Below, one piece after another: positions 45,479 to 63,878 of a stretch of DNA of 64,000 bases; the first letter of the stretch is position 1; the number at the start of each line of letters is the position of its first letter. The notes under the pieces were generated by a model. It did no database searches. It was not told the DNA's origin and worked only from the letters and a program-made list of their open reading frames with translations. The DNA is taken from positions 226,909-290,908 of the forward strand of contig NZ_BAAADV010000008.1 in NCBI RefSeq assembly GCF_039522665.1. Direction: 5' to 3'. Both the position numbers and the translations under genes were made by a program. Source of the stretch: Natronoarchaeum mannanilyticum. Its GTDB lineage: Archaea > Halobacteriota > Halobacteria > Halobacteriales > Natronoarchaeaceae.

Positions 45479-48400
45479 TCAGTCTGTCTGGGGCGGTTCG
45501 ATGGGGGTGTCGCCGTCTGCGGTATTGGCGTCCAGCTCGCGGGGCAACTGCTCGCGCGCGAGTGCGGACGGGTCAGCGGCGGCGTCAAACGGATGGAAGT
45601 CGAACGAGAACGAGACCGGCTCGGGCTGAACGCGGTACTCCGGGAGCGGCTTGACCGGCGTCCCACCGACGCCGGAGACGGCGACGTCGGCGAACAGCGT
45701 CGTCCCGTCCTTCTCAACCAGTTCCTCGAGGCGACTCGCCGACGCGAGGTTCTCGTACTGGTCGAGTCGAACGTTAAGCGGCTGGTCGCCGGATACCACG
45801 ACGCCGACATCCTCGCTCGTCACGCTGACCCAGCGCACGTCGGTCTTGTTACCGTTATCCGAGGGAACGCGGTACGGGACGAACTGGTCGTCAATCCCGC
45901 CGGCGTAGCGTCCGATCTCGCTGCCGGTCTTGCGGTCGGGGTAGGTTTCCTCGGGTCCGCGCCCGAACCACTCGATCGACGAGAACGACGCCGGAAGATC
46001 GAACTGGACGCCGAGTCTTGGCAGCCACGACTCGAGCGTATTTCGGAGCGTATCCGTGGGATCGACGTCGACTGTCGTCGTGACGGCGCCGTTCCCGAAC
46101 ACCTCGTGCCGGTAGCGCAGATCGAACAGCGCGTCGCCGTCGGGATTCAGGGCCACCGACTCGGCAATCAGGCGAACGGCCCCCGGAACTGGGCGTTTAA
46201 CGGAGTAGTCGAGCAGTTCGTGCCGGAGGTCGTCCAGCCCGAGCGCCCGCCACTCCGAGGCGTTGTCGTACCCCCACTCGGTGTCGCTGTCGAGGTGCTG
46301 CTCGTTCGCCAGCGGGGCCCGAAACGCACCGAACAGTGGCCCGTCGATCGCTACGACGTCGCCGTCGTACTCGAACTCGCAGAACACCCCGCGATCCGCG
46401 TCGAAGCGGTACGCAAACCGATCGCCGCGGAGTTCGATCGTCGATCCGGTTTCCGAGACTGCGATCGGGGGCTGTTCCGCGGGGGATTCGGGTGAGGGCT
46501 CGGGCATATCGAAGGGCACCTCGAACTGCTCAAACCCGATCTCGTGGCCCGCTGTCGCCCAATCGGTATCCTCGGCAAGTTCGAGTCGGATCGTCAGATG
46601 ACACACGGAGCCGACGTCCACGTCCGGGTGATTGAGCGGAACGATGACGCCCCGCTCGTGGCCCGGGGGAACGTCGAGGTCGAGCACGCCCGACTGTACG
46701 ACGGCGCCGTCGACCGCGAGCTCCCAGGTCGCATCGAACGCGCTCAGGTTGGTGAAATCGTAGTGGTTCGTGACCGTGAGGATCCCCTCCTCGAGCGAAA
46801 CGGCGTCGGCGGTGAACGGCTGCTGGGTCTTTTTCACCTGACGCAGTTCAGGCTGGGGTGTCAGGTCCGCGAACACCGTCCCGTCGAGCAGGAACGGATC
46901 GTCGTCGATCCACCACTCCTCGCCGTCGGCGACGGGGACGGCATCGCCGGCGAGCGTCTGGTTGCACCACTCCCAGATGAACCCGCCCTGGAGGCCGCTG
47001 ATCTCCCGGATCAGCTCCCAGTACGCGTCCTGAAGCCCGAGACTGTTACAGAGCGCATGGCCGTACTCGCCCATCACGAGCGGCCGGTCGTCGACGGCGT
47101 CGTGCTGGACGAGCGTGTGCGGAACCGGATATCGTGGACCGGAGACATCGGTGAACGGCGCCGTTCCGGTCATGTTCTCGTGGTACTTGTCGTACGGCGC
47201 AGGGCCCGATCCCTGGTGGTAGACAAATCGGGTGCCGTCTCGATCGCGGGCGTACGACGCCATCTTCTCGTGGGGGGGGCCCTCGCCAGCCTCGTTGCTC
47301 GTACTCCAGGCGACGATTGACGCGAAGTTCTTGTGGTGTTCGACCATCCGCTCGAACCGCTGGAAGTACGAGTCGTGGAACGTCGGGGCCTTGTGGACGA
47401 AGTCCATGTCGAAGTGCGTCTCGACGTTCGCCTCGTCGACGACGTACATCCCCAGCTCGTCGGCGAGTTCGTAGATCTCGAGGTCGTTCGGGTAGTGAGA
47501 GGTTCGGACGGCGTTGATGTTGTTCCGCTTCAGCATGCGGAACTCCTCGAGGGAGCGCTCATACGGGACGGTTCGTCCCGTCTCGGGATCGTGCTCGTGG
47601 CGGTTCATTCCGCGGAACGTCACCGGTTCCCCGTTCACGAGTACCTGTCCGTCCTCGATCTCGAACTCCCGGAACCCGACCCGCTGTGGGATCGCTTCGC
47701 GGACCGTTCCGTCCGGCCCGCGCAGTTCCAGGACGAGATCATAGAGATTCGGATGTTCGGCCGACCACTGGGCCGGTCGCTCGACGGTCGTTTGCAGGCG
47801 TGTCTCGACGCCGTCGGCCAGGTCGACAGACTCGCGGAGCGTCGTCACCTCGTCTCCGGCGTCGTCGAACAGTCGCCCGATGAGCGTCCACCCGTCGTCG
47901 CGCTCGGCGTCAACGCGGGCCTCGTCGGCGGAGAGTTCGGCGTCCACGGTCAGTGTAGCGTCCTCGTAAGCGCCGTCGAACGACGTCCGGACGAAGTAGT
48001 CTCGGAGGTGCACCGCCGGCTTCGAGTAGAGGTAGACGCTCCGGAAGATCCCGCTGAACCGGATCATATCCTGTGTTTCGAGGTAGCTTCCGTCGGAGAA
48101 GCGGAACACCTGAACGGTGATCGTGTGCTCGCCGCCTGGATCGAGCTTCTCGGTCACGTCGAACTCCGAGGGCGTCATCGACCCCTGGTCGTAGCCGACG
48201 TACTCGCCGTCCATCCAGACGAAAAACGCGGACTTGACGCCCTCGAAGTGAAGATAGTTGCTGCGGGCGCCGTCCCAGTCGTCCGGGACGTCGACGGTGC
48301 GGCGATACGTCCCGACGGGGTTGAACTCCTCGGGAACGTTCGGCGGCTCGGGTTCGGTCTCGATCTCGGGAATCCGTTCCCACGTCAGGGCGTGGTTGCG

Positions 48401-48739
48401 GTAGATTGGTCTGTCATAGCCCTCGAGCTGCCAGACGCTCGGAACCGGGATCGAATCCCAGTTCGCGTCCGCGCCGAGCCGCTCGGGAACGTCGGACGGG
48501 GCCTCCGCCCAGCAGAACGACCATTCGCCGTTCAGAAGTTCGAAGTACTCCGACTCGCTCCATCTGGACTCCGGTTCCGACAGTCTGTTTCCGGCGTTCC
48601 GCGCCGCCGCCGTCGACGCGTACGGAACGGTCGGCGCATGCACGGCTTCGACGTTCTCCCCGAGCTGTGACGGATTTTCGATATAATCTGCTACCGCCGC
48701 AAGTTGGTCTGGCTTTCTGGACACGGGTACTCGTAGCAT
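45479..48739 (-). CDS. GH2 beta-galactosidase (LacZ-like)
   Basis: Taking ATG 48739 (MLRVPVSRKPDQL) gives 1086 residues; ATGs at 48754 and 48751 are possible. A TTTTTTTATAT stretch at about 48752-48763 would serve as TATA box for a leaderless transcript. Domain order is LacZ-like: NPSQLGENVEAVHAPTVPY, sugar-binding domain (PVPSVWQLEGYDRPIYRN), barrel with NRHEHDPETGR, acid/base Glu near 483 in STSNEAGEG and nucleophile Glu near 558 in VMGEYGHALCN, then the C-terminal beta-sandwich. No signal peptide, so it acts inside the cell on imported galactosides. It is divergent from the DgoD gene, and the shared region holds operator-like copy 4. Confidence 0.93.
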   Translation of the reverse strand: MLRVPVSRKPDQLAAVADYIENPSQLGENVEAVHAPTVPYASTAAARNAGNRLSEPESRWSESEYFELLNGEWSFCWAEAPSDVPERLGADANWDSIPVPSVWQLEGYDRPIYRNHALTWERIPEIETEPEPPNVPEEFNPVGTYRRTVDVPDDWDGARSNYLHFEGVKSAFFVWMDGEYVGYDQGSMTPSEFDVTEKLDPGGEHTITVQVFRFSDGSYLETQDMIRFSGIFRSVYLYSKPAVHLRDYFVRTSFDGAYEDATLTVDAELSADEARVDAERDDGWTLIGRLFDDAGDEVTTLRESVDLADGVETRLQTTVERPAQWSAEHPNLYDLVLELRGPDGTVREAIPQRVGFREFEIEDGQVLVNGEPVTFRGMNRHEHDPETGRTVPYERSLEEFRMLKRNNINAVRTSHYPNDLEIYELADELGMYVVDEANVETHFDMDFVHKAPTFHDSYFQRFERMVEHHKNFASIVAWSTSNEAGEGPPHEKMASYARDRDGTRFVYHQGSGPAPYDKYHENMTGTAPFTDVSGPRYPVPHTLVQHDAVDDRPLVMGEYGHALCNSLGLQDAYWELIREISGLQGGFIWEWCNQTLAGDAVPVADGEEWWIDDDPFLLDGTVFADLTPQPELRQVKKTQQPFTADAVSLEEGILTVTNHYDFTNLSAFDATWELAVDGAVVQSGVLDLDVPPGHERGVIVPLNHPDVDVGSVCHLTIRLELAEDTDWATAGHEIGFEQFEVPFDMPEPSPESPAEQPPIAVSETGSTIELRGDRFAYRFDADRGVFCEFEYDGDVVAIDGPLFGAFRAPLANEQHLDSDTEWGYDNASEWRALGLDDLRHELLDYSVKRPVPGAVRLIAESVALNPDGDALFDLRYRHEVFGNGAVTTTVDVDPTDTLRNTLESWLPRLGVQFDLPASFSSIEWFGRGPEETYPDRKTGSEIGRYAGGIDDQFVPYRVPSDNGNKTDVRWVSVTSEDVGVVVSGDQPLNVRLDQYENLASASRLEELVEKDGTTLFADVAVSGVGGTPVKPLPEYRVQPEPVSFSFDFHPFDAAADPSALAREQLPRELDANTADGDTPIEPPQTD

Positions 48740-49186
48740 ATCTACGGTCATCATATAAAAAAAGCGCGGTAGCTGACCGGGTTCGGGGTGCGGGCGCAAG
48801 CCGTGTCCGCACCGGGACTTCCGCTGCGATCGCTCTAGATCCACTAATAGTACATCCTGCAAAGTTCTTTTACAATAGTACCTATGTAATTTCTTGGGCG
48901 AGGCTCCGCGGGTTGTACACTATCAGTAAACACGGTGTTCGTGCGGGTGACGTGGTCGCCTTCTACAGTGCGCAAACATTTTGACGGCCTGCGTGGAAGC
49001 GACAGGTGCAGAACGCTACCGGACAGTTGATCCGACCGCCGTCGCCGAGACAAGACGACGCACCCGGCAGGGTGGACCGGTCGACGCGCCCGACAGAGCG
49101 ATCGAACAGCGTCGCCGGGACGGTCGCCGCCGACGCGTCCGTAGGTCGGATCAGTCCGGCGAGAACGACGGTGATCAAGTGTACCC
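48740..49186. other. Divergent regulatory region of the galactoside locus
   Basis: About 447 bases between the beta-galactosidase and galactonate dehydratase genes. It contains operator-like copy 4, an ACTAATAGT element at 48843-48851 and a CATCCTGCAAAG half site beside it. The right half (48985-49186) is GC-rich without a supported gene. Confidence 0.5.
48870..48889 (+). promoter_or_regulatory. Operator-like repeat, copy 4
   Basis: TTACA-AT-AGTA-CCTA-TGTAA, with both arms and the AGTA core identical to copy 2. It lies about 130 bases upstream of the beta-galactosidase start and 300 upstream of the DgoD start, 15 kb away from the other copies and in the other sugar locus. Confidence 0.6.
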
Positions 49187-50341
49187 ATGAGCGAAATCGT
49201 AGACTACGAACTGTTCGAAGTACCGCCACGCTGGGTGTTTCTGCGGATCGAGACAGCCGACGGCACCGTCGGCTGGGGAGAACCGGTGATCGAAGGGCGC
49301 TCCCGGACGGTACTGACGGCGGTGGAGGAACTGATGGACAACTACCTGCTGGGCGAAGATCCCCAGCGGATCGAGGACCACTGGCAGGCGATGTACCGCG
49401 GCGGGTTCTACCGCGGGGGTCCGATCCTGATGAGCGCGATTGCCGGCATCGACCAGGCGCTCTGGGACATCAAGGGCAAGCAGTACGGCGCCCCGATCCA
49501 CGACCTGCTGGGCGGTGCAGCACGGGATCGCATCCGCGTCTACCAGTGGATCGGCGGCGACCGACCGTCCGACGTGGCCGAGCAGGCCCGGGAGCAGGTC
49601 GACGCCGGCTTCACCGCCCTGAAGATGAACGCGACGCCGGAGATCGAGCGGATCGATGATCCGGCGACCGTGACGGCCGCCGCGAATCGGCTGCAGCAGG
49701 TACGGGAGGCCGTCGGCGACGAGATTGACATCGGGGTCGACTTCCACGGGCGCGTCTCGAAGCCGATGGCGAAACGGCTCGTCGAGGCGCTCGAACCCCA
49801 CGATCCGTTCTTCGTCGAGGAGCCCGTGCTGCCCGAGCACAACGACGCGCTGCCGGAGATCGCCCAGCACACGACGACGTCGATCGCGACCGGCGAGCGA
49901 ATGTTCTCCCGCTGGGACTACAAGGAGCTGTTCGAGCAGGGCGTCGTTGACCTAATCCAGCCCGACCTCTCCCACGCCGGCGGGATCACCGAGGTAAAGA
50001 AGATTGCCGCGATGGCAGAAGCCTACGACGTGGCGATGGCACCGCACTGTCCGCTTGGTCCGATCGCGCTGGCCTCGTGCGTGCAGGTCGACGCCTGTTC
50101 GCCGAACGCGCTGATCCAGGAGCAGAGCCTGAACATCCACTACAACGAGACGACGGACGTACTGGACTACCTTACTGATCCTTCCGTGTTCGAGTACGAA
50201 GAGGGGTACGTGTCGATCCCCGACGATCCCGGGCTCGGCATCGACATCGACGAGGAGTACGTCCGTGAGCAGTCTCAGCAGGACGTTGATTGGACCAATC
50301 CTGTCTGGCGCCACGACGACGGCAGCGTCGCCGAGTGGTAG
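49187..50341 (+). CDS. dgoD: D-galactonate dehydratase
   Basis: The protein has 384 residues and matches bacterial DgoD along its whole length: PPRWVFLRIET, GWGEPVIEGR, YRGGFYRGGPILMSAIAGID, LWDIKGK and a C-terminal WRHDDGSVAEW. It belongs to the enolase superfamily. Metal ligands are Asp in VDFHGR, Glu in FVEEPV and Glu in ATGERM. Catalytic His187 (DFHGR) and His287 (APHCPLGP) are both present. It dehydrates D-galactonate to 2-keto-3-deoxygalactonate in the De Ley-Doudoroff route. With the SDR and lactonase in this locus it would complete galactose oxidation. Starts at ATG 49187; the next gene follows after 66 bases. Confidence 0.95.
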   Translation: MSEIVDYELFEVPPRWVFLRIETADGTVGWGEPVIEGRSRTVLTAVEELMDNYLLGEDPQRIEDHWQAMYRGGFYRGGPILMSAIAGIDQALWDIKGKQYGAPIHDLLGGAARDRIRVYQWIGGDRPSDVAEQAREQVDAGFTALKMNATPEIERIDDPATVTAAANRLQQVREAVGDEIDIGVDFHGRVSKPMAKRLVEALEPHDPFFVEEPVLPEHNDALPEIAQHTTTSIATGERMFSRWDYKELFEQGVVDLIQPDLSHAGGITEVKKIAAMAEAYDVAMAPHCPLGPIALASCVQVDACSPNALIQEQSLNIHYNETTDVLDYLTDPSVFEYEEGYVSIPDDPGLGIDIDEEYVREQSQQDVDWTNPVWRHDDGSVAEW

Positions 50342-50407: not shown

Positions 50408-51220
50408 ATGTCGAGGGATCCAACAGACGGCGCAGTCGCGAACAGACACGACGAGCGCGTCGCCATCGTCACCGGATCGACGCGGGGCATCGGCAAGGGC
50501 GTCGCCCGTCGCTTCGCCGCCGAAGGAGCCTCGGTCGTCGTGACGGGCCGAACGCGCGAGCGCGGAGAGGCGGTCGCGTCGACGATTCGCGAGGAGGGCG
50601 GCGAGGCGACGTTCGTGCGGGCGGACATGCGCGACCCGGCCGAGATCGAGGCGCTCGTCGAGCACACCGTCGACGAGTACGGCCGCGTCGACGTGCTCGT
50701 GAACAACGCGGGCGTCCAGACCGAAACCACCGCCGCGGAGGCTGAAATCGACGACTGGGTGTTCGTCGTCGAGACGGACTTCCGATCGTTCTGGCTCTGC
50801 GCGAAACACGCCGTCGAGCACATGGCCCAGGGCGGAACGATCCTCAACATGTCCTCGAACCACGCGTATCTCACGATGCCCGGACTATTCCCCTACAACG
50901 CGATCAAGGCCGGTATCAACGGCATGACGCGAGCGCTCGCCCTGGAACTCGGCCCGTTGGGGATCACCGTCAACACGATCAACCCCGGCTGGATCGAGAT
51001 CGAGCGGACCCAGGAGGAACTCGGCGACGACTACGAGTACACCCAGGAGATCCACCCGGTCGGCCGGCTCGGCACGCCCGCTGACGTCGCGGGGCTGGCA
51101 GCGTTCCTCGCGAGCGACGACGCGACGTTCGTCACCGGCGAGAGCGTTCTCATCGACGGCGGGCGCAGTCAGGTGATGCAGGACGAGCTGTATAGGCAGT
51201 ACCGGACGCAGATCGAGTGA
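50408..51220 (+). CDS. Short-chain dehydrogenase/reductase, candidate sugar 1-dehydrogenase
   Basis: The protein has 270 residues, a classical SDR. The nucleotide motif is TGSTRGIG, followed by NNAGVQ. The catalytic Ser is in NMSSNHAY, and Tyr and Lys are in PYNAIKAG. The C-terminal VTGESVLIDGG is typical. An N-terminal extension of about 18 residues precedes the Rossmann fold. Members oxidise sugars such as galactose, glucose or fucose at C1 to lactones. Its place between dgoD and a sugar ABC transporter, with a lactonase in the same locus, makes galactose dehydrogenase the best guess. Confidence 0.82.
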   Translation: MSRDPTDGAVANRHDERVAIVTGSTRGIGKGVARRFAAEGASVVVTGRTRERGEAVASTIREEGGEATFVRADMRDPAEIEALVEHTVDEYGRVDVLVNNAGVQTETTAAEAEIDDWVFVVETDFRSFWLCAKHAVEHMAQGGTILNMSSNHAYLTMPGLFPYNAIKAGINGMTRALALELGPLGITVNTINPGWIEIERTQEELGDDYEYTQEIHPVGRLGTPADVAGLAAFLASDDATFVTGESVLIDGGRSQVMQDELYRQYRTQIE

Positions 51221-51371: not shown

Positions 51372-52670
51372 ATGAAGGACCCTGCAGATCCTAGTCTACG
51401 GCGTCGGCAAGTCATCCAAGCACTCGGTCTCGCCGGTGCAGGCAGCCTGGCAGGTTGCATCGGCGGTAGCAGCGGCGGTGGCGACTCCGAAATCGAGGGA
51501 TGGGCGTGGAACGTCGCCGCCAAGGCGCTCAGCGATGCCGCCGACACGTACAACGAGGAAAATGACACCAACATCGCAGTTGACGAGCTCGGCCGCAACA
51601 CGCATGAACAGCGCCTCCAGACGGCGATCACCAGCGGGACCGGCGCCCCCGAGTTCACTGCCGTCCAGAACTACGACGTCACGTCGTACGGAAGCAAGAA
51701 CGGTCTCACCGACCTCTCTGACCGGATCGACGATAGCGTCCGCGATGACATCATTGACGGGAAGTGGGAGACGGTCAACGTCGACGGCGCTGACATGGCG
51801 TTCCCGTGGGACATCGGCCCGACGGGCATCTTCTACAAGCGGGATCGCTACGACGAAGCCGGCATCGATCCGGATTCCATCGAGACGTGGGACGACTTCA
51901 TCGAAGCCGGGAAACAGCTCCCCGATGACGTCGCGATGGTAAACATCCCGAAAGAAGAGATTTCCCAGCTGTGGCGAATGCTTTTCCGTCAGCTCGGCGG
52001 TCAGTCGTTCACCGAGGACGGCGCGGTGAACATCCACAGCGAAGAGAGCGTCCGCGTTGCCCAGCTCCTGATGGACATGAAGGATGCCGGCATCACCCAG
52101 CGCATCGGACTGTGGTCTGGTGGGTGGTTCACCTCGTTCGCCGAGGGGACCATCGCGTCGCTACCCTCTGCGGCCTGGATGGACGGAACGCTCCGGGCTG
52201 AACTCAGCGACACGGCCGGGAACTGGGGCGTCTACAAACTGCCGGCGTTCGAGCCGGGCGGCAACCGCGCGTCAAACCGCGGCGGTTCCAACATGGCGAT
52301 CCCAGCTCAGATCAGCGACGAAGAGGTCGTCGACACCACGTACGATTACATTGAGTACGCGATGACGACCCCCGAAATACAGAACATGATGCTTGAGGAG
52401 TACGGCCTCTTCCCGTCGCTGACGACGGCGTACGACGCTGACATCTACGACGAGGAGCTGGACTTCTACGACGGGCAGCCGGTCTTCCGACTGTTCGCAG
52501 AGGTCGCCCAAGAGATTGAGCCGTACAGCTACACGACCGACACACCGGAGGTCAACAACGCCATCACCACCGAACTCGGCCGGATGCTTGAGGGGAACAA
52601 GTCCCCTGAGCAGGCCGTCCAAGACGCCGCAGAGACCGTCGCGGACCGCAGCGACCGCGATCTGGCGTAA
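51372..52670 (+). CDS. Sugar ABC transporter binding lipoprotein (MalE/family 1 type)
   Basis: The protein has 432 residues. It has a twin-arginine signal (LRRRQVIQALG) and lipobox (SLAGC) followed by a Gly/Ser linker. The mature domain fits the family 1 extracellular sugar-binding proteins: FPWDIGPTGIFYKRDRYDEAG, WDDFIEAGKQL and SNMAIPAQ. It is lipid-anchored outside and delivers oligosaccharides to the permeases. Genes for two permeases and an ATPase follow on the same strand, making a complete CUT1-type importer. The ligand is likely a beta-galactoside or galacto-oligosaccharide from context. Confidence 0.92.
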   Translation: MKDPADPSLRRRQVIQALGLAGAGSLAGCIGGSSGGGDSEIEGWAWNVAAKALSDAADTYNEENDTNIAVDELGRNTHEQRLQTAITSGTGAPEFTAVQNYDVTSYGSKNGLTDLSDRIDDSVRDDIIDGKWETVNVDGADMAFPWDIGPTGIFYKRDRYDEAGIDPDSIETWDDFIEAGKQLPDDVAMVNIPKEEISQLWRMLFRQLGGQSFTEDGAVNIHSEESVRVAQLLMDMKDAGITQRIGLWSGGWFTSFAEGTIASLPSAAWMDGTLRAELSDTAGNWGVYKLPAFEPGGNRASNRGGSNMAIPAQISDEEVVDTTYDYIEYAMTTPEIQNMMLEEYGLFPSLTTAYDADIYDEELDFYDGQPVFRLFAEVAQEIEPYSYTTDTPEVNNAITTELGRMLEGNKSPEQAVQDAAETVADRSDRDLA

Positions 52671-52874
52671 AATCGCGAGCAGTTCAGGATGCAGAGCGGA
52701 ACCTTTATCATTAACCCAAAGCAATCCGATCAAGAATCCACATGAGTCGACAAACCACACCACCAGTTTCCAAACCGCCGCTGCGCACCGGCAGGTCGAG
52801 CGCTTGTCGGTCCAGGGCGGCCCGCGGAAACGTCTGGTCGTCACGGCCGGAGGTAACGAGGTGAAACCCGTCAG

Positions 52875-53888
52875 ATGGTGTTGAGTGCCATCCAATCTAA
52901 GGTCCGGTCGCTTCCCGCTTACCAGCGTGTGAGCGACCAGCTCAGATACCGCCGGCAGGGCGTTTCCGACGCCGTGCCGGAGGTGCCGGGGCTTCCATAC
53001 CTCTACATCTCCCCGTTCTTCGTCCTGTTCGGGATCTTCCTGCTGTTCCCGACCGCCTACACGCTTTACCTGTCCTTTTTCAGCTATCAGGGGGCCTCAA
53101 ACGAGGCGCTCCTGACGATACCCCTTCTGAAGGTGACGATACCGCAGATCGCCCAGCTCGAGTTCATCGGGCTGGATCACTATCAGCGATTACTCTTCGA
53201 GGACTCGCTGTTCCGTCAGTCCCTGTTCAACACCTCTTTCATCTTCCTGGTGCAGGTGCCGCTGATGGTGATCCTCGGGCTCGCGACAGCGCTCGTCCTT
53301 GACGCAAAGTTCATCCGGGCGAAGGGGCTGTTTCGGACGCTCATCGCCCTGCCGGTCGCGACGGGACTAGTCGCGTACTCCACAATATTCCTGCTGTTGT
53401 TCAACGACGACATCGGGATGATCAACTACGTGCTCCAGTCGCTGGGCGCGAGCGCGATCCCGTGGCTCAGCGACTCGTGGTGGGCGCGGATCACGCTGGT
53501 CATCGCGGTCACCTGGCGATGGCTCGGCTACAACATGATCATCCTGCTGGCGGGGCTCCAGACGATCCCCGAACAGCTCTACGAGGCCGCCGAGATCGAC
53601 GGCGCGAAGCGCTGGGAGAAGTTCCGCTACGTCACGCTCCCCCAGCTCCGGCCGGTGCTGCTGTTCGTCGTCGTCTCCTCGACGATCGGGACGTTCCAGA
53701 TTTTCGCCGAACCGTTCGTCATCACCGGCGGCGGCCCGTCTAACGCCACAATCACGATGGTACAATACATCTACAGACAGGCGTTCATCCAGCTGAACCT
53801 CGGCTACGCGAGCGCCGTGTCGGTCGTGCTCGTCGCGCTCGTGAGCGTCATGTCGATCGTACAGATCAAATATGGAGGGACCGAATAA
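52875..53888 (+). CDS. Sugar ABC transporter permease (MalF/UgpA type)
   Basis: The protein has 337 residues. A cytoplasmic N-terminus of about 50 residues is followed by six membrane helices. The EAA loop is in EQLYEAAEIDGAKRWEKFRY. It is typical of the first permease of CUT1 transporters. The 204-base gap after the binding-protein gene has no other gene. Its stop overlaps the next start (TAATG). Confidence 0.93.
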   Translation: MVLSAIQSKVRSLPAYQRVSDQLRYRRQGVSDAVPEVPGLPYLYISPFFVLFGIFLLFPTAYTLYLSFFSYQGASNEALLTIPLLKVTIPQIAQLEFIGLDHYQRLLFEDSLFRQSLFNTSFIFLVQVPLMVILGLATALVLDAKFIRAKGLFRTLIALPVATGLVAYSTIFLLLFNDDIGMINYVLQSLGASAIPWLSDSWWARITLVIAVTWRWLGYNMIILLAGLQTIPEQLYEAAEIDGAKRWEKFRYVTLPQLRPVLLFVVVSSTIGTFQIFAEPFVITGGGPSNATITMVQYIYRQAFIQLNLGYASAVSVVLVALVSVMSIVQIKYGGTE

Positions 53889-54724
53889 TGCGGCAAGCAG
53901 ACAAGAGGGAGGCGCTCTGGAAGTTCGGGAGCTACCTCTTCCTGTTGGTCATCACGGCGCTCGTGTTGATCCCCATCTACTGGATGGTCGTCGCGGCGAC
54001 GATTCCCCAGCAGGAGTTCTTCAGTTGGCCGCCGCGACTCATCCCCGGCACCCACTATCTGGAGAACTTCCAGGCGCTACAAGAGAACGTCAGCTTCGCG
54101 CGGAGCATCCTCAACAGCCTCATCGTCTCCGTCGGGTACACGGCGCTGTCGCTGGTGCTGTGTTCGATGGCGGGCTTCGCCTTCGCGAAGTACGAGTTCC
54201 GGTTCAAGGAACCGCTGTTCTACTTCATCCTGGCGACGCTGGTGCTCCCGATCCAGTTGCTGATCATCCCGCTGTTCCTGCTGATGACCCAGATCGGCTG
54301 GACGAACTCGTTCATCGCCGTGATCTTACCGTGGGCGGCCAACCCGCTCGGGATCTTCCTGATGCGCCAGAACATGAAGGCGATCCCCGACGCACTGCTC
54401 GAATCGGCACGGATGGACGGCGCGACGGAGTTCCAGCTGTACTACAAGATTGCGCTGCCGACGATGCTCCCCTCGCTCGCGGCGCTCGCGATCATCCTGT
54501 TCATCAACCAGTGGCAGGCGTTCCTCTACCCTCTGGTCATCCTCCAGGAGGAGGAGATGTTCACTATCCCGATCGCGCTGGCCCAGCTCGTCGGGCAACA
54601 GCGCGTCTACTTCGATCAGGTGATGGTCGCGACATCGCTGTCGATCATCCCTCTGTTCCTGGTGTTCATCTTCCTGCAGCAGTACTTCATCAAGGGAATC
54701 CTCTCGGGCTCAGTCAAACAATAA
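53888..54724 (+). CDS. Sugar ABC transporter permease (MalG/UgpE type)
   Basis: The protein has 278 residues and six membrane helices. The EAA loop reads DALLESARMDGATEFQLYYK, followed by PTMLPSL. It begins within the stop codon of the preceding permease gene, so the two are translated together and form the channel. The ATPase gene starts 7 bases after its stop. Confidence 0.94.
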   Translation: MRQADKREALWKFGSYLFLLVITALVLIPIYWMVVAATIPQQEFFSWPPRLIPGTHYLENFQALQENVSFARSILNSLIVSVGYTALSLVLCSMAGFAFAKYEFRFKEPLFYFILATLVLPIQLLIIPLFLLMTQIGWTNSFIAVILPWAANPLGIFLMRQNMKAIPDALLESARMDGATEFQLYYKIALPTMLPSLAALAIILFINQWQAFLYPLVILQEEEMFTIPIALAQLVGQQRVYFDQVMVATSLSIIPLFLVFIFLQQYFIKGILSGSVKQ

Positions 54725-54731
54725 GATAACA

Positions 54732-55856
54732 ATGGCTACAATCGAAATCACGCAACTTCGCAAGGAATTCGGCGACGGAGACGAACAGATCGTCGCGGTC
54801 GAGGACGTCGACCTCACCATCGAGGACGGCGAGTTCATGGTGTTCGTCGGCCCCTCGGGCTGCGGCAAGACGACGACGCTCCGGTGCATCGCGGGGCTCG
54901 AAGACATCACCGACGGGACCATCGAGTTCGACGACGACGACGTCACCGACCAACGAGCGCGCGAACGGGACGTCGCAATGGTGTTCCAGAACTACGCGCT
55001 GTACCCTCACATGTCTGTCCGGAAGAATATCGGGTTTCCGCTCCGGCTGTCGACGAAGCAGTCGACAGACGAGATCAACGAGGAAGTCAAGGACGTCGCG
55101 GAGATGCTCGGCATCGAGGAGCTGCTGGGCGACAAGCCCAAGGAGCTCTCGGGCGGCCAGCAACAGCGCGTTGCGCTCGGGCGGGCGATCATCCGAGATC
55201 CGGAAGTGTTCCTCATGGACGAACCGCTCTCAAACCTCGACGCTAAGCTCCGCTCAAAAATGCGCACGGAGCTTCAGGAGCTCCAGAAGGATCTTGGCGT
55301 CACCACGGCCTACGTCACGCACGACCAGACCGAGGCGATGGCAATGGGCGACCGAATCGCGATTCTCAACAACGGTCGTCTCCAGCAGGTCGGAACCGCC
55401 AACGAGGTCTACCGCGAGCCGACGAACGAGTTCGTCGCTGGCTTCATCGGGAGTCCGAGCATCAACCTGTTCACCGCGGAGGTTGACGGAGCCACCCTGA
55501 CCGGCCCCGGCGGTTTCAGGTACGAACTAGACGACACGTCGCCGGTCGCCGATCGTGACGAGGTGCGCGTCGGCATCCGTCCGGAGGACATGCAACTCGT
55601 CGAGGACGGGAGCGTGCCCAGCGTGGTGACCGTCGTCGAGAACATGGGCAACGAGAACTTCCTCTACTCAGAGATGGGCGAGATCAACCTCACCACGCGC
55701 GTCGACAGCAAGATGAACCCGCGCGAGGGCGCCGACGTCGAATTCCACTTTGACGAGGAGGACCTCTACCTGTTCGACCTGCGGACCGAGCAGGCCATCA
55801 AAACCAAGACCAGCGATATCGACGTCGACTACCGTCAGCACGTCCAGAGCAGGTAG
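54732..55856 (+). CDS. Sugar ABC transporter ATPase (MalK/MsmX/UgpC type)
   Basis: The protein has 374 residues. It has Walker A GPSGCGKTT, Q-loop FQNYALYPHM, signature LSGGQQQR, Walker B VFLMDEPLSNLD and switch VTHDQTEA. The C-terminal TOBE/MalK regulatory domain (about 240-370) contains VRVGIRPEDM, as in sugar importers. It is the last gene of the transporter operon. Confidence 0.95.
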   Translation: MATIEITQLRKEFGDGDEQIVAVEDVDLTIEDGEFMVFVGPSGCGKTTTLRCIAGLEDITDGTIEFDDDDVTDQRARERDVAMVFQNYALYPHMSVRKNIGFPLRLSTKQSTDEINEEVKDVAEMLGIEELLGDKPKELSGGQQQRVALGRAIIRDPEVFLMDEPLSNLDAKLRSKMRTELQELQKDLGVTTAYVTHDQTEAMAMGDRIAILNNGRLQQVGTANEVYREPTNEFVAGFIGSPSINLFTAEVDGATLTGPGGFRYELDDTSPVADRDEVRVGIRPEDMQLVEDGSVPSVVTVVENMGNENFLYSEMGEINLTTRVDSKMNPREGADVEFHFDEEDLYLFDLRTEQAIKTKTSDIDVDYRQHVQSR

Positions 55857-56099: not shown

Positions 56100-56127
56100 A
56101 TGCTGAACTTTGGTTTGGTTAGCGACA

Positions 56128-59100
56128 ATGGCACAAGAGACCAATCCACAGTCCGGAGCGAAAGCACCGACCACCCGCCGATCCGTGCTATCGGCGGTGT
56201 CTGGCGTCGCGCTCGGGACGGCGCTCCCGATCGGGGCCAGTGCTGCACAGGCAACCGAAGAGTACGAGGCGGCGAAATCGTCGGTCGAGTTGACGCCTCG
56301 ACCGGACCAGGCCGACGTCGGCGGGACGAGATCGCTGAACGGAACCTGGGACTTCACACTGGCGGGCAGCGAGACGCCGCCCGCCGCCGACTCGGCGTCC
56401 AGGGTTGTCACTCCGGATCGCACCACCCTCGAGAACGACGCCATGCTGCACGACGATCCGCCGATCATCACGGATCCCGACGAGCGTGCGGTCGACCTCG
56501 CCGGCGACGGGTACGTCGCCGTCGGCGACGCGAACAGCCTCGACTTCACGTCTCCCGGCTTCACCGTCCAGCTGACGTTCAAGTACACGGAGGACACAGT
56601 GCTGTTCTCCAAGGGCGGAAATCAGTACTCGGCCGGGGTGTACGGCGGCGAACTGTCATTCTGGACCAAGGGAGAAGGCGGCTGGCCATCGGTCGGCGGC
56701 GGCGACCTCTCACCTGGCGACTGGTACAGAGCCACCTTCGCGGTGGACGACGACGAGATCCGCATCTACGTCGAGGGCGAACGGGTCGGGACAGCCTCGC
56801 ACGGCTTCTCGTCGCTTCCCAGTACCGACTCGCCGCTCCACTTGGGCTACAACTCGGGGACCGACACGCAGGGCACACCCGCAGTCGACTCGCTGTGCGT
56901 CTTCGACACCGTGCTCACCGACAGCGACGTGAGCGCGGGGTTCGACTCGATCCCCGATAGCGCAGTCGCGTGGCTCCCGTTCGACGAGTCCGAAAGCGGA
57001 ACAAGTCAGGACGAATCGTCCGCCGGCAACGACGCCTCACTCGTCAACGACCCGCCGTTCGTCAGCGGGCGGGACGGGCGTGGACTGGATCTCGCCGGAC
57101 CGGGGTACGTCACAGTAGCACCGGACGACAGCCTGAACTTCGCGTCGACTGGGTTCGCGCTGCAGGCCATGGTACGGTACGACGGCGGGAGCGGCCTCGT
57201 CCTCGACAAAGGAAGCAGCGGCGTCTCCGGCGGGACCGAGCAGTTCGGTCTCGGCATCTACGACGGGACCGTCTCGTTCTACATGCAAAGTGCAGACGGG
57301 AGCTATCCGCAAAGCGTCCAGACCGACATCTCGACCGGCGGGTGGCACCGGATCACGGTCGTCGTCGACGACGCCGAGAACCGGCTGTACGTCGACGGCG
57401 ATCGGCGAGGGGCGGTCTCGCACGACGCCGACGGCCTCGCGAGCAGCGACGCGGCGTTCGTGGTCGGCGGCGACGACCTCGACGTCGCGGTGAAATCGAC
57501 GGCGGCGTTCGACGCCGCTCTCTCGGACGGCGAGGTCGCAAGCGGGTTCACCGGAGTACCCGACAGCGCCGTGCTCTGGCTGCCGTACAACGTCGTCGAG
57601 GATCGGAGCGTCGAATGGCGCGACGAGTCGGTCCCCGGCCAGTGGGCGTACGACGAGTACTTCGTCCCCGACGGCGCGTCGGACTGGTACCCCCAGGAGG
57701 GACAGCTGGGCTGGTACCGCCGCGAGTTCGAGGTTCCCGAAGGATGGGACGAGGGACGGCTAAAGCTCCGGTTCGACGGCGTGTACAGCCGCGGACGGGT
57801 CTTCGTGAACGGCACGGAAGTCGCCGATCACGTCGGGGGGTACACGCCGTTCGAGGCCGACATCACTGACGTCGTCGACCCCGAGGGCTCGAACACGCTC
57901 GCAGTCGGGGTCGCCCAGCGGTCGAAGGCCGACGACATGGGATGGCAGAACGTGACCGGCGGGATCACCCGCGACGTCACCCTCCTGTCGATCCCCGACG
58001 CCCACCTCGCCGACTGCGACGTCAGAACGACGCTCGACACCGGGACGGCGTCCGTCGCCATCGACGCGACCGTCGCGAACGTCGGCGAGACGGCGCTCGA
58101 ATCGGCCGTCGTCGAAGCGACACTGACCGATCCGGACGGGGAAGCCGTGGCGTCGAAACGCGCGGAGCTTTCATCGGTCGCGGACGGAGCGTCCCGAGAC
58201 GTCGAGTTCGAGATCGACGTCGACGACCCGCAACCCTGGAACCCGGAGCAACCGAGGCTGTACGCGCTCGACGTCGAACTCGACGCCGGCGGGACGACGG
58301 AACGTGTCACGGAGCACGTCGGCATCAGGGAGATCGAGGTCGACGGCAACGAACTGCTGCTCAACGGCGAGTCGGTGACGCTCCGCGGCGTCAACTGGGA
58401 GGAGATCCACCTGGCGGAACACGGCCACGCCGTGCCGCCGGACGTCACGCGGCGAGACGCCGAGCGCCTCAAGGAGGCGAACGTGAACTTCGTCCGCACC
58501 GCCCACCACCCGACGTCGGAGGCGTTCCTCGACGCCTGCGACGAGCTCGGGATCGTCGTCGAGGTTGAGGCACCGCACATGTTCATCGGGCGCCACCGCG
58601 GCGAACCGTATCCGGAGCTCGTCGTCCGGCAGACCCTGGAGATGGTCGAGCGGGACAAGAACAGGCCATCGGTCTGCATCTGGTCGATCGCCAACGAATC
58701 CGACTGGTACGACTGCTTCGACGCGGCCGCCCGACTGGCGAAGGAGGTCGACCCGACGCGCCCGACGATCTTCAATCACGACGACTACGACGCGGCCGAT
58801 CCATGGCACGGCGACTACGACCTCCGCGCGGATCACTACCCCGCGCTGCGGTCGGACTCGACCGTCTCCGACCACGCCGGCATGGACGCGCCGCTGCTGT
58901 TCGACGAGTACGCCCACACGTACTGCTACAACGACCGTGAGCTGGTCACCGATCCGGGACTCCGCGACGAGTGGGGCCGCGTGTTCCGGACGATCTGGGA
59001 GCAGTGTCGGTCGACGAAGTCGGTCGCTGGCGCGGCTCTGTGGGCGGGCGGCGACCACCTCGAACAGTGGGGCGAGTACCTCTGGGGCGCCGTCGACCGG

Positions 59101-60339
59101 AACGGGCGCCGCCGCCCGGAGTTCTGGCACCTGCGCAAGGTGTACGCGCCGGTGCAGTTCACCGACGTCGAGTGGCACGGCCGCCGCGCGACGGTGACCG
59201 TCGAGAACCGCCACGAGTTCGTCAACCTGCGCGAGCGGACGATCGCGTGGGACGACGGCAAGCGGTCCGGCGAGCGCTCGGTCGATCTCCCGCCCGGCGA
59301 AACCGCCGAGCTGTCCTTCGCCGTCCCGGGCGACAAACTCGAACTCGAAGTGATCCATCCCGACGGGCACGTGAACAACGAGTTCGTCGCCTCGCCGGAG
59401 GTGCCCGGAGCGAACCGGCGATCGCGCGCGAAGGAGCGGACGAAGAACCGCGGGCGCGGACGGGTTGACGCCGAAAGCGACTCGCTGTCGCTGCAGGTCG
59501 ACGAGGACGCCGGCGACGTGTCGATCTACGGCCCCGACGGGACGCTCCTCGCCCGGAACCCGGAGTTCGCCGTCACACCGACCCAGCAGTCGACGGGCCG
59601 CGATTACGCCTCCGCGATCGATCACCGGTTGTCGGGGCGGACCGTGACCGACGTTCGGCGGGACGGCGACGGAACCGTCACCGTCGACATCGAGTACGAC
59701 GTCGCGGAGGGATCGATCACCGTCGAGTCCGGCGAGAGCGGTCTCGACGTCGACTACGAGTTCGAGCTTCTCGAGTCGGTCGACGCCCGCGAGGCCGGGA
59801 TCACGTTCCCCGCAGACGCCGAGCTCACGACGCTCTCGTGGTCGCGCGACGGCCTCTGGAGCACGTATCCCGAGGATCACGTCGGCAGACTGGAGGGGAC
59901 CGCGTCGGCGTTCCCGGACGGGACCCGCTCCGAGAACGAAGGGATCGAAATCCAGTCCGGACAGCCCTGGAAGGACGACGCGACCGTCCACGGCTCAAAC
60001 GACTTCCGAAGCACGAAGCGAAACGTCAGGTCGGCAGCGCTCACCGACGAATCGGGCACCGGCGTCCGCGTCGATTCGGACGCCGACCAGCACGTCCGGG
60101 CGCAGGTCCGGTCGGATGGCGTCGACCTGATCGTCCTCGAACGATCGATCTCGGGGACGAACGCGGACGGCTGGCTCGACCGCCAGCCGCTTCTGGATCA
60201 GGATCCGACGCTCAAGGCGGGCGAGACCGTACGCGGAAGCGTCAGTCTCAGCGCCGCCGTCGATGGGACGGCGGTCGAGTTCGGCGAGCGCGCGGCGCCG
60301 GGCCGCCGTGCGGGTCGAGACCGCGATTCCGATAGATAG
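56128..60339 (+). CDS. Secreted GH2 glycosidase with two LamG-like modules inserted in the N-terminal domain
   Basis: ATG 56128 gives 1403 residues with a Tat signal (TRRSVLSAVSG). A start further upstream would need TTG. Residues about 55-100 begin a GH2 sugar-binding domain (SLNGTWDFTLAGSE). Two LamG/concanavalin-like modules follow at about 115-290 and 315-490, each with DLAG-GYV-V, a VDD-VDG-R strand and an F-D-L-D/S-G ending. The GH2 domain then resumes (VPGQWAYDEYF, LRFDGVYSRGRVFVNG). The barrel has LRGVNWEEIHL, acid/base Glu857 in WSIANESDWYD and nucleophile Glu927 in LFDEYAHTYC. It is probably a beta-galactosidase or beta-glucuronidase-like enzyme acting on polysaccharide outside the cell. 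The C-terminus is very acidic and Arg-rich. Confidence 0.88.
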   Translation: MAQETNPQSGAKAPTTRRSVLSAVSGVALGTALPIGASAAQATEEYEAAKSSVELTPRPDQADVGGTRSLNGTWDFTLAGSETPPAADSASRVVTPDRTTLENDAMLHDDPPIITDPDERAVDLAGDGYVAVGDANSLDFTSPGFTVQLTFKYTEDTVLFSKGGNQYSAGVYGGELSFWTKGEGGWPSVGGGDLSPGDWYRATFAVDDDEIRIYVEGERVGTASHGFSSLPSTDSPLHLGYNSGTDTQGTPAVDSLCVFDTVLTDSDVSAGFDSIPDSAVAWLPFDESESGTSQDESSAGNDASLVNDPPFVSGRDGRGLDLAGPGYVTVAPDDSLNFASTGFALQAMVRYDGGSGLVLDKGSSGVSGGTEQFGLGIYDGTVSFYMQSADGSYPQSVQTDISTGGWHRITVVVDDAENRLYVDGDRRGAVSHDADGLASSDAAFVVGGDDLDVAVKSTAAFDAALSDGEVASGFTGVPDSAVLWLPYNVVEDRSVEWRDESVPGQWAYDEYFVPDGASDWYPQEGQLGWYRREFEVPEGWDEGRLKLRFDGVYSRGRVFVNGTEVADHVGGYTPFEADITDVVDPEGSNTLAVGVAQRSKADDMGWQNVTGGITRDVTLLSIPDAHLADCDVRTTLDTGTASVAIDATVANVGETALESAVVEATLTDPDGEAVASKRAELSSVADGASRDVEFEIDVDDPQPWNPEQPRLYALDVELDAGGTTERVTEHVGIREIEVDGNELLLNGESVTLRGVNWEEIHLAEHGHAVPPDVTRRDAERLKEANVNFVRTAHHPTSEAFLDACDELGIVVEVEAPHMFIGRHRGEPYPELVVRQTLEMVERDKNRPSVCIWSIANESDWYDCFDAAARLAKEVDPTRPTIFNHDDYDAADPWHGDYDLRADHYPALRSDSTVSDHAGMDAPLLFDEYAHTYCYNDRELVTDPGLRDEWGRVFRTIWEQCRSTKSVAGAALWAGGDHLEQWGEYLWGAVDRNGRRRPEFWHLRKVYAPVQFTDVEWHGRRATVTVENRHEFVNLRERTIAWDDGKRSGERSVDLPPGETAELSFAVPGDKLELEVIHPDGHVNNEFVASPEVPGANRRSRAKERTKNRGRGRVDAESDSLSLQVDEDAGDVSIYGPDGTLLARNPEFAVTPTQQSTGRDYASAIDHRLSGRTVTDVRRDGDGTVTVDIEYDVAEGSITVESGESGLDVDYEFELLESVDAREAGITFPADAELTTLSWSRDGLWSTYPEDHVGRLEGTASAFPDGTRSENEGIEIQSGQPWKDDATVHGSNDFRSTKRNVRSAALTDESGTGVRVDSDADQHVRAQVRSDGVDLIVLERSISGTNADGWLDRQPLLDQDPTLKAGETVRGSVSLSAAVDGTAVEFGERAAPGRRAGRDRDSDR

Positions 60340-60473: not shown

Positions 60474-61334
60474 ATGACCGCAGAACTCGTAGCCGACTAC
60501 GCGTGCGAGATCGGGGAGGGACCTGTCTGGCATCCGGACGAGGAGCGACTCTACTGGGCCGACATTCCGAACGGGACGCTGTACCGCTACGATCCCGCGA
60601 CCGACACCCACGGGACGGTTCTGAGCGATACCGTCGTGAGCGGCGGGACGATCCAGTCGGACGGCTCGCTGTTGCTGTTCGGCGCCGGCGGCGCGGTCTA
60701 CCGGTGGGCCGGAGCCGAGACCGAGACGGTCGCGACGCTCGACACGGCCGCCCACACGCGGTTCAACGACGTCATTGCCGATCCCAGGGGCCGCGTCTTC
60801 TGCGGAACGATGCCGACGGACGATCAGCTCGGCACCCTTTTCCGGCTCGATCGCGACGGGACGTTCACGCGGATCCTCGACGAGGTCGACATTCCCAACG
60901 GGATGGCGTTCTCCGCGGACCGCGAGACGTTCTACTTCACGGCCTCGGACGAGAACGCGATCTACGCGTTCGACTATGACATCGAGTCCGGGTCGATATC
61001 GGATCGGTCAGTGCTCGTCGACACGAGCGACGAGGCCGGCGTCCCCGACGGGCTGGCGATCGACGAGCGCGGCGACCTCTGGTCGGCGCGCTGGGGCGGG
61101 AACGCGGTCGTTCGGTACTCCCCCGAGGGCGTCGAGCGGGAGCGGGTCGACGTTCCGGTCGAAAAGGTGTCGTGCGCGACGTTCGGCGGCCCGTCGTTCG
61201 ACACCCTCTACGTCACGACGGCAGGCGGGGACGAGCGCCCGACCGGAGGCGAACTGGACGGCTCGCTCTTCCGGTACGAGCCCGACACCACGGGTGGAGC
61301 GCAGTTCTACTCGCGAGTACTCGTCGACGAGTGA
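60474..61334 (+). CDS. SMP-30/gluconolactonase-family sugar lactonase
   Basis: The protein has 286 residues, a six-bladed beta-propeller. Landmarks are IGEGPVWHPDEERLYWAD (metal-binding Glu near the N-terminus), TRFNDVIADPRGRVFCGTM (Asn and Asp), IPNGMAFSADRETFYF and VPDGLAIDERGDLWSARWGG (Asp). These are the usual metal ligands. It opens sugar lactones to acids. Between a sugar dehydrogenase and a galactonate dehydratase in function, galactonolactone is the likely substrate. It is 134 bases after the secreted GH2 gene on the same strand. Confidence 0.9.
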   Translation: MTAELVADYACEIGEGPVWHPDEERLYWADIPNGTLYRYDPATDTHGTVLSDTVVSGGTIQSDGSLLLFGAGGAVYRWAGAETETVATLDTAAHTRFNDVIADPRGRVFCGTMPTDDQLGTLFRLDRDGTFTRILDEVDIPNGMAFSADRETFYFTASDENAIYAFDYDIESGSISDRSVLVDTSDEAGVPDGLAIDERGDLWSARWGGNAVVRYSPEGVERERVDVPVEKVSCATFGGPSFDTLYVTTAGGDERPTGGELDGSLFRYEPDTTGGAQFYSRVLVDE

Positions 61335-61921: not shown

Positions 61922-63055
61922 ATGGCCCAGATCGTCGACTACGAACTATTCAAGGTTCCGCCGCGATGGCTCTTCCTGAAGATCGAGACGAGCGACGGGA
62001 CGGTCGGCTGGGGCGAGCCGATTCTCGAGGGGCGTGCCAAGACCGTCCGGACGGCGGTCGAGGAACTGATGGACGGGTACCTGCTGGGCGAGGAATCGAA
62101 TCGGATTGAGGACCACTGGCAGCGGATGTACCGCGGCGGGTTCTACCGCGGCGGCCCCGTCCTCATGAGTGCGATCGCCGGCATCGACCAGGCGCTGTGG
62201 GACATCAAAGGGAAGTACGCGGGCGAACCCGTGTACGACCTTCTCGGCGGTCAGACCCGCCACCGGGTGAAAGTGTACAAGAAGGTGGTGACCGACGAGC
62301 TCGACGAACTCGCGGACCTGGTAACGGACGCGGTCGACGATGGATACGGTACCGTCAAGCTCATCACCGCGTACCAGACGTCGGCGATCGAGTCGACCGC
62401 GGATCTGGACGCAATCTGCGAATACCTCGAGGTGGCGAGAGAGGCGGCCGGTCGAGAGGTCGATATCGCCGTCGACCTGCACGGACACATCTCCGCAGCC
62501 ACGGCGCCGCGGCTATTCTCGCGCCTCGAGGAGTACGACCCGATGTTCGTCGAGGAACCGATCCGCCCCGAGCACCTCGATACGATCGATCCGTCGTCCC
62601 AGTACGCGTTCCCGATCGCGTTCGGCGAGCGGTTATATTCGCGGTGGGACTTCAAGCCATACCTCGAACGGGGACAACTGGACATCGCACAGCCCGACAT
62701 CTCGCACGCCGGCGGGATCACCGAAATCAAAAACATCGCCACGCTAGCCGAGACGTACGGCGCGAAGCTGATGATGAACTACTCCGTCGGGCCGATCGCC
62801 TACGCTGCGGGCACGCAGCTCAGCCACCACCTCTCGAACGCCGTCCAGCAGCCGGCGGTGAGCGAGCGCTACATCGACGCGTACATCGACAACGTCAACG
62901 ATCTCAGGAGCGAGAACGGCTACGTCTCCCTCCCCGACAAGCCCGGACTCGGGATCGACGTCAACGAGGAGGGAGTCAGGGACCACGCCGGACAGACGAG
63001 TGACTGGATGACGCCCAACCGGCGGCACGACGACGGGAGCCTCGTTGAGTGGTAG
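61922..63055 (+). CDS. DgoD-like enolase-superfamily protein lacking one catalytic His
   Basis: The protein has 377 residues and is a paralogue of the DgoD at 49187, with the same start (VDYELFKVPPRW), YRGGFYRGGPVLMSAIAGID and ending (RRHDDGSLVEW). Metal ligands Asp (VDLHGH), Glu (FVEEPI) and Glu (AFGERL) are kept, as is His187. The second catalytic His (APHCPLGP in DgoD) is replaced: here the stretch is MMNYSVGP, with Asn at 286. The central barrel region also differs (KVYKKVVTDELDELADLV). It probably acts on another sugar acid or epimer, or uses one base only. It is followed by an iclR gene. Confidence 0.85.
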   Translation: MAQIVDYELFKVPPRWLFLKIETSDGTVGWGEPILEGRAKTVRTAVEELMDGYLLGEESNRIEDHWQRMYRGGFYRGGPVLMSAIAGIDQALWDIKGKYAGEPVYDLLGGQTRHRVKVYKKVVTDELDELADLVTDAVDDGYGTVKLITAYQTSAIESTADLDAICEYLEVAREAAGREVDIAVDLHGHISAATAPRLFSRLEEYDPMFVEEPIRPEHLDTIDPSSQYAFPIAFGERLYSRWDFKPYLERGQLDIAQPDISHAGGITEIKNIATLAETYGAKLMMNYSVGPIAYAAGTQLSHHLSNAVQQPAVSERYIDAYIDNVNDLRSENGYVSLPDKPGLGIDVNEEGVRDHAGQTSDWMTPNRRHDDGSLVEW

Positions 63056-63164: not shown

Positions 63165-63878
63165 GTGTCCCGGAAGAACCGCATTACGGCAACCGAGACC
63201 GCATTCGATATACTGGACGCTGTCAACGACGCCCAGGGCGCCACGGCGGCGGAACTAGTGGAGGAAGTCGACCTCTCCCGGGCAGGCGTTTACAAGCATC
63301 TCAGGACGCTGGTCGCCGTCGACGCCCTGATCAATCGCGACGGGATCTACGTTCTGGGACCGAAGCTCACCGAGTATGGTCTCGACACTGCGGACTCCGG
63401 GTTCGTCCCCGAGCAGACCGAGAAAATCGATCAGGTGGCGCAGTCCCTCGACGCGCCGGCAAACCTGTGGATCAACGACGATAACACGTGTCACTGCGTC
63501 TACACCGTGCTCTCGGAGGACCGAGAGAGGTACCCCAGGCACCGAGGAGAACAGGAACTGCTGACCGCGAGTCCACCCGGCAAGGCGATCCTGGCCCATC
63601 TCCCGCGGGAGCGGCGCAACGAACTAATCAACACTGAAGGACAGCCACTGCTGGATCAGTTAGAGGAACTTCGAGAGCGGAAGTTGCTCGAAGAGCAACT
63701 GTCAGATGCCTCCGAGTGGGTGTCGATCGCCACACCGGTGCTTGACCCCTCTGACCATCCCGTGGCGGCGATTGAGATCATCATCCCGTCCGAAAGAGCA
63801 GCCGGAATCGACGTCAAAAACAACATCCTCGGACTGTTGACTGAGACTGCGAACAAGATGCGCGTTGAGATGCTGTAA
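63165..63878 (+). CDS. IclR-family transcriptional regulator
   Basis: It starts at GTG 63165 and has 237 residues. The winged helix-turn-helix (ATAAELVEEVDLSRAGVYKHLRTL) is at about 20-65. The effector domain has LLTASPPGKAILAHL and VSIATPVLDPSDHPVAAIEI. It is shorter than usual and the effector region between about 85 and 130 diverges from the 32219 regulator. It is 109 bases after the DgoD-like gene and probably controls the galactoside locus. A GTACTAACAGTT stretch at about 63119-63130 just upstream may be its own operator, but no other copy was seen. Confidence 0.9.
   Translation: MSRKNRITATETAFDILDAVNDAQGATAAELVEEVDLSRAGVYKHLRTLVAVDALINRDGIYVLGPKLTEYGLDTADSGFVPEQTEKIDQVAQSLDAPANLWINDDNTCHCVYTVLSEDRERYPRHRGEQELLTASPPGKAILAHLPRERRNELINTEGQPLLDQLEELRERKLLEEQLSDASEWVSIATPVLDPSDHPVAAIEIIIPSERAAGIDVKNNILGLLTETANKMRVEML

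Follow-up and report, generated by a model that had tools for sequence, protein, structure and literature searches.

The window, by which we mean the whole 64,000-nucleotide stretch of Natronoarchaeum mannanilyticum DNA that was analysed, encodes a canonical galactonate dehydratase (DgoD) and, in the same sugar-catabolic region, a DgoD-like paralogue that lacks the second catalytic histidine, referred to below as the variant. The features of the locus are as follows.

43303-45158, plus strand: Gfo/Idh/MocA oxidoreductase and a hydroxypyruvate/2-oxotetronate-isomerase-like TIM barrel, a pair conserved in 4 loci
45479-48754, minus strand: LacZ-type GH2 beta-galactosidase
49187-50341, plus strand: canonical DgoD with both catalytic His (H187, H287)
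50408-51220, plus strand: SDR dehydrogenase paired with dgoD, probable galactose dehydrogenase, with a partner of approximately 82% identity in 4 other loci
51372-55856, plus strand: CUT1-type sugar ABC transporter (binding protein, two permeases, ATPase), homologous to transporters in 4 variant loci, this one included
56110-60339, plus strand: GH2 glycoside hydrolase with LamG domains, with a counterpart (approximately 59% identity) in the Halorubrum trapanicum locus
60474-61334, plus strand: SMP-30/gluconolactonase-like protein, found at the window locus only
61922-63055, plus strand: the variant, a DgoD-like enolase-superfamily paralogue of 377 aa
62282-62284, plus strand: K121 of the variant, end of barrel strand 1 (E. 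coli DgoD Trp119), Lys or Arg in 8/8 orthologues
62357-62374, plus strand: strand-2 motif K146-L-I148-T-A-Y151, with the Lys kept, E. coli Asn146 replaced by Ile/Leu, and the clade-invariant Tyr151 as a candidate relocated base
62474-62482, plus strand: metal ligand D185 and H187 (E. coli D183 and H185), both kept
62564-62566, plus strand: R215, just past the strand-4 metal ligand, clade-invariant, Leu or Val in DgoD
62777-62779, plus strand: codon of Asn286, which replaces catalytic His285
63165-63878, plus strand: IclR-family regulator gene, directly downstream of the variant in 8/8 orthologous loci

The variant aligns over its full length with the neighbouring DgoD at 52% identity in BLASTP, and its block MMNYSVGP stands where that DgoD has APHCPLGP. 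In E. coli DgoD, His285 serves as the base and His185 as the acid (compare Wieczorek 1999, cited in PMC11219438). Alignment with the E. coli enzyme places the metal ligands D183, E209, and E235 at D185, E211, and E236 of the variant, His185 at H187, Lys144 at K146, and Asp258 at D259, all of which are kept, while His285 falls at N286 and is lost. These alignments bear out what the earlier note had read from the letters, namely that the sequence block was exchanged, that the metal ligands and the other histidine remained, and that the second catalytic histidine was missing. The active-site difference extends beyond His285, further than that note saw.

Seven orthologues of the variant, at 70-77% identity, were recovered when genome contigs, plasmids, and whole genomes were searched, while all other DgoD-like proteins found were at most 55% identical to it. 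The orthologues come from a Haladaptatus halobius plasmid (L055), Halegenticoccus tardaugens (L013), Halorubrum trapanicum (L014/L050), the genome G378 (L049), and three genomes of one genus (L051-L053), and together with the variant they form a single clade (100/100) on a long stem. A frame-shifted ordinary DgoD from Haladaptatus halobius (L019) was considered as a further orthologue and rejected. The site of His285 holds Asn in 3 of the 8 members, Ser in 5, and His in none, so that, judging by the alignment, it is the loss of the histidine that is conserved in the clade and not the asparagine itself. The weight that the earlier note had placed on the Asn as a meaningful residue is thus unsupported, and we reject the Asn as a conserved catalytic residue. 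Every other DgoD-like haloarchaeal or bacterial sequence that was read retains His285, with the exception of one further subfamily (H185R/H285N) described below.

All eight clade members retain the three metal ligands, K146, H187, and D259. When clade-wide changes were scored against 16 canonical haloarchaeal DgoDs, further positions invariant in DgoD were found altered in 8/8, with Trp119 replaced by Lys/Arg, Asn146 by Ile/Leu, Arg187 by His, and Leu213 by Arg (E. coli numbering). Glu310 of strand 8 is also lost in 8/8, the site being Gln or Pro depending on the gap. The new residues of the clade are Tyr151, His189, and Arg215, with Tyr151 invariant throughout in the loop past strand 2, five residues after Lys146. 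Over the whole protein, altered sites that are invariant in DgoD are over-represented at the active-site (C-terminal) ends of the barrel strands (odds ratio 4.5, p = 1e-4); within the barrel alone this enrichment is only suggestive (odds ratio 2.2, p = 0.07). Within one genus dN/dS of the variant is approximately 0.09-0.10, similar to DgoD, and the variant is under purifying selection. A sequencing error or pseudogene was rejected, given 8 loci with intact frames and a dN/dS of approximately 0.1.

The variant carries the Pfam domains MR_MLE_N/C, and its capping domain, modified TIM barrel, and acidic ligands on strands 3, 4, and 5 place it in the enolase superfamily. Its general acid H187 is that of DgoD in 8/8 members. 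The DgoD base His285 paired with Asp258, equivalent to the His-Asp dyad on strands 7 and 6 of the mandelate racemase (MR) subgroup, is broken in all of them, with Asp259 present and the His replaced by Asn or Ser. The pattern of two-base racemases and epimerases, a KxK motif together with a strand-6 Lys or strand-7 His, is likewise absent, the variant having KLI on strand 2, Asp259 on strand 6, and Asn286 on strand 7. On the curated galactonate dehydratase model NF010624 the variant scores 453 bits and passes the equivalog cut-off of 311, and on the curated ManD model it reaches 226 bits against a cut-off of 550. The AlphaFold model (pLDDT 87.6) has as its top solved structure the Mg-bound PRK14017 enzyme 3rra (Z 49.4, rmsd 2.3, 374 residues), followed by many ManD-type and MR-type enzymes. 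The structure alignment covered the clade without L055.

Divergence from DgoD is distributed very unevenly between the two domains. The capping domain (residues 1-112) is 76% identical to haloarchaeal DgoDs, which are 83% identical to each other, whereas the barrel is 42% identical, compared with 80% among DgoDs. The stem of the clade has a length of 0.22 changes per site when the tree is built from the cap, and of 1.96 when it is built from the barrel. Acquisition of the barrel from another enolase family is unsupported, as PRK14017 is still its top match at 246 bits. Recent gene conversion of the cap by a resident DgoD is also unsupported; third-position identity to the DgoD of the same genome is generally no higher (0.61 in the window), with a single higher value of 0.75 in L051. 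In the enolase superfamily the capping domain reads the far end of the substrate. Since the cap is nearly unchanged, the far end of the substrate is probably little changed and the chemistry around C1-C3 is probably what differs.

Most variant loci also hold DgoD, beta-galactosidase, or sugar-transporter genes. The dgoD-SDR pair occurs in five of them, and hydrolases of the LacZ, GH42, or LamG-GH2 type in several. The N. mannanilyticum genome contains two canonical DgoDs besides the variant, and the six other variant-bearing genomes searched in full each yielded a canonical DgoD; for Haladaptatus halobius the search covered the plasmid only. In that species a canonical dgoD with a frameshift near codon 150 lies at 8001-9153 of plasmid unnamed1, while the intact variant is on another plasmid. 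Haloarchaeal galactonate dehydratase genes have been described near beta-galactosidases, serving the De Ley-Doudoroff pathway (PMC3102087; PMC11219438). The GH2 hydrolase of the window is a protein of 1409 aa with two LamG-type domains before its catalytic part, and its gene adjoins that of the SMP-30 lactonase. Elsewhere in the window, at 36666-37661 on the minus strand, lies a UxuA-type mannonate dehydratase-like protein of only 331 aa, which scores 220 bits on NF003027 (cut-off 191) and whose match to UxuA is shortened. A sulfatase N-terminal fragment of 116 aa (L010, 7040-7390, minus strand) adjoins glycosyltransferase genes approximately 2.3 kb beyond the IclR gene.

Compared with DgoD (PRK14017/NF010624; E. 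coli DgoD; PDB 3rr1/3rra), the variant shares the fold, the cap, the three metal ligands, the equivalents of Lys144, His185, and Asp258, and the beta-galactoside/De Ley-Doudoroff context. It differs in having neither the His285 base nor Glu310, in the replacement of Trp119 and Asn146, in its new Tyr151, His189, and Arg215, and in a shorter region past strand 8. In the MR fold, 2R substrates depend on a His of strand 7 and 2S substrates on a base located on the strand-2 side, where ManD uses Tyr159/Arg147. The variant has in common with ManD and RspA a DxH on strand 3, and its Tyr in the loop after strand 2 may be an analogue of ManD Tyr159, but it is unlike them in having neither the long 150s insertion nor the strand-7 His that both of them keep. 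In the literature searched, from which subscription papers were mostly absent, no characterised relative with the residue pattern of the variant was found.

Our leading interpretation, to which we give about an even chance, is that the variant would be a catalytically competent, repurposed PRK14017-family dehydratase of a galactose-acid pathway and not a D-galactonate dehydratase. The observations that we count in its favour are the His285 loss, the clade-diagnostic changes, the strand-end enrichment, the contrast between cap and barrel, the dN/dS, the fold match, the coexistence with DgoD, and the IclR and sugar-catabolic context. Because the acid and the metal site are kept, the 2R-face base is gone, and a fixed Tyr151 has been gained, we propose an other-face dehydratase acting on a C2-altered acid derived from galactose. 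A Mg-chelated sugar acid would still be bound, and since the cap is kept its C4-C6 end would resemble that of galactonate. The 3-OH would still be expelled with H187 as the acid, while the C2 proton would be taken from the opposite face by a relocated strand-2-side base, for which Tyr151 activated by Lys146, or Lys121, are candidates. By analogy, this base may correspond to Tyr159/Arg147 of ManD.

Because the proton would be removed from the other face, a substrate with opposite or altered C2 is expected, probably a C2-altered acid, and D-galactonate would be poorly turned over. D-talonate, the 2S epimer, would be the most economical choice and is our best single guess, though a weakly held and rather improbable one; no gene naming D-talonate or another 2S acid occurs within the window. 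The altered stereochemistry or substrate that the earlier note had suggested is well supported: throughout the clade His285 is missing and no fewer than six additional residues at active-site strand ends are replaced, the protein is under purifying selection, and an intact DgoD exists alongside.

A different account of the same replacements is that the new basic residues (Lys/Arg121, Arg215, and His189) bind a second anionic group, so that the substrate would be a dianion, such as a galactarate- or uronate-type acid or a sulfated galactonate, and would still be dehydrated. This account fits the clade-fixed exchange of the DgoD Trp for Lys/Arg at position 121 and of the DgoD Leu for Arg at position 215, and also the sulfatase-domain fragment beyond the IclR gene. 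Against it, no such fragment turned up in the other loci that were read, and the capping domain, through which the far end of the substrate is recognised, is nearly unchanged; we consider a dianionic substrate unlikely. The loss of the base, together with a regulator gene that is always adjacent and a canonical DgoD that coexists, could also be explained if the variant performs no catalysis and instead serves to bind an acid of the galactose pathway or to form assemblies with DgoD, helping the adjacent IclR regulator or tuning DgoD. The conserved cap could in that case preserve subunit contacts. Retention of the three metal ligands, K146, H187, and D259 in 8/8 members speaks against a noncatalytic protein, as does the fixation of new active-site residues, which is not a product of decay, and we regard this as a rather unlikely explanation.

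It is less probable again that the variant is still a D-galactonate dehydratase in which water or another residue stands in for His285. The whole-protein score above the curated cut-off argues for retained activity, but the barrel by itself, to which a cut-off set for full-length proteins does not apply, reaches only the 246 bits noted above against 461 for the barrel of the neighbouring DgoD. Moreover, the base and the strand-8 Glu are both lost, and the genome already has two canonical DgoDs. Least probable, and very doubtful, is the racemase or epimerase that the earlier note envisaged, or alternatively a cycloisomerase, working on C2 of an acid or lactone derived from galactose. The enolase superfamily does contain racemases and cycloisomerases, and a lactonase-like gene lies upstream. 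However, 1,1-proton transfer as it is known requires a base on each face, and here strand 7 has no His and Ile/Leu takes the place of the second Lys of the strand-2 KxK motif; conservation of the lactonase gene, moreover, does not extend to the other loci.

A second DgoD-like group is present in approximately 36 of 391 haloarchaeal genomes (members L075-L077, L088, L089, and L096-L112; neighbourhoods L094, L095, and L113-L119). It resembles the variant in the loss of His285, here to Asn, in scoring above the DgoD cut-off (595 bits), and in a nearby IclR gene. Unlike the variant it has also lost His185, and all 19 of the members read carry H185R, H285N, N146D, and E310D; four (L105 and L108-L110) have additionally lost Asp258 to Val. 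The whole-protein tree joins this group and the variant clade as sisters (93/83), a relationship absent from the cap and barrel trees. Across nine loci the recurring neighbours are IclR, a sugar ABC transporter, a glucose-dehydrogenase-like MDR protein, a GH3 beta-N-acetylhexosaminidase, a PIG-L deacetylase, RidA, and a DgaE-like PLP lyase or a GlmS/GlmD-like SIS protein. The enzymes of these neighbourhoods, from the hexosaminidase and deacetylase to RidA, the lyase, and the glucose dehydrogenase, set the group apart from the variant, and none of 6 amino-sugar marker proteins was found in the loci of the variant clade, for which an amino-sugar role was accordingly rejected.

This neighbourhood points to an oxidative amino-sugar pathway, and the predicted substrate of the second subfamily is a sugar acid with a 2-amino or 2-acetamido group. 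We take the loss of His285 in a subfamily of amino-sugar clusters as a separate indication that the absence of this His is accompanied by a different group at C2. A more far-reaching proposal, which we put forward tentatively, is that, within the single orthologue group of DgoD, the variant has discarded the His/Asp base of the mandelate racemase type and abstracts the proton from the opposite face instead (by Tyr151/Lys146 or Lys121), with the cap near intact. Both the mechanistic subgroup that it represents and its activity on sugar acids would then be new, with the parallel H185R/H285N case serving a 2-amino sugar acid.

The automatic name galactonate dehydratase looks wrong for both groups, because they score above the cut-off yet lack catalytic residues. 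Misannotation through missing functional residues is a class already described for the enolase superfamily (PMC2781113), and two haloarchaeal subfamilies are here exposed that pass the curated threshold in this way. Since it is conserved in at least eight haloarchaea, the variant probably functions as an enzyme on a different sugar acid and goes by the wrong name in databases. Its near-unchanged cap and rewritten barrel amount to a natural experiment in how the superfamily changes chemistry while keeping substrate recognition, and the two groups predict as yet unassigned steps in archaeal galactoside and amino-sugar catabolism. Two other DgoD-like paralogues, L090 (G419:C7:421843-422988) and L091 (G378:C2:446361-447527), are deeply divergent, with 53-55% identity and long branches; in L090 the strand-4 metal ligand Glu209 is replaced by Asp, and in L091 the strand-1 and strand-2 motifs are altered.
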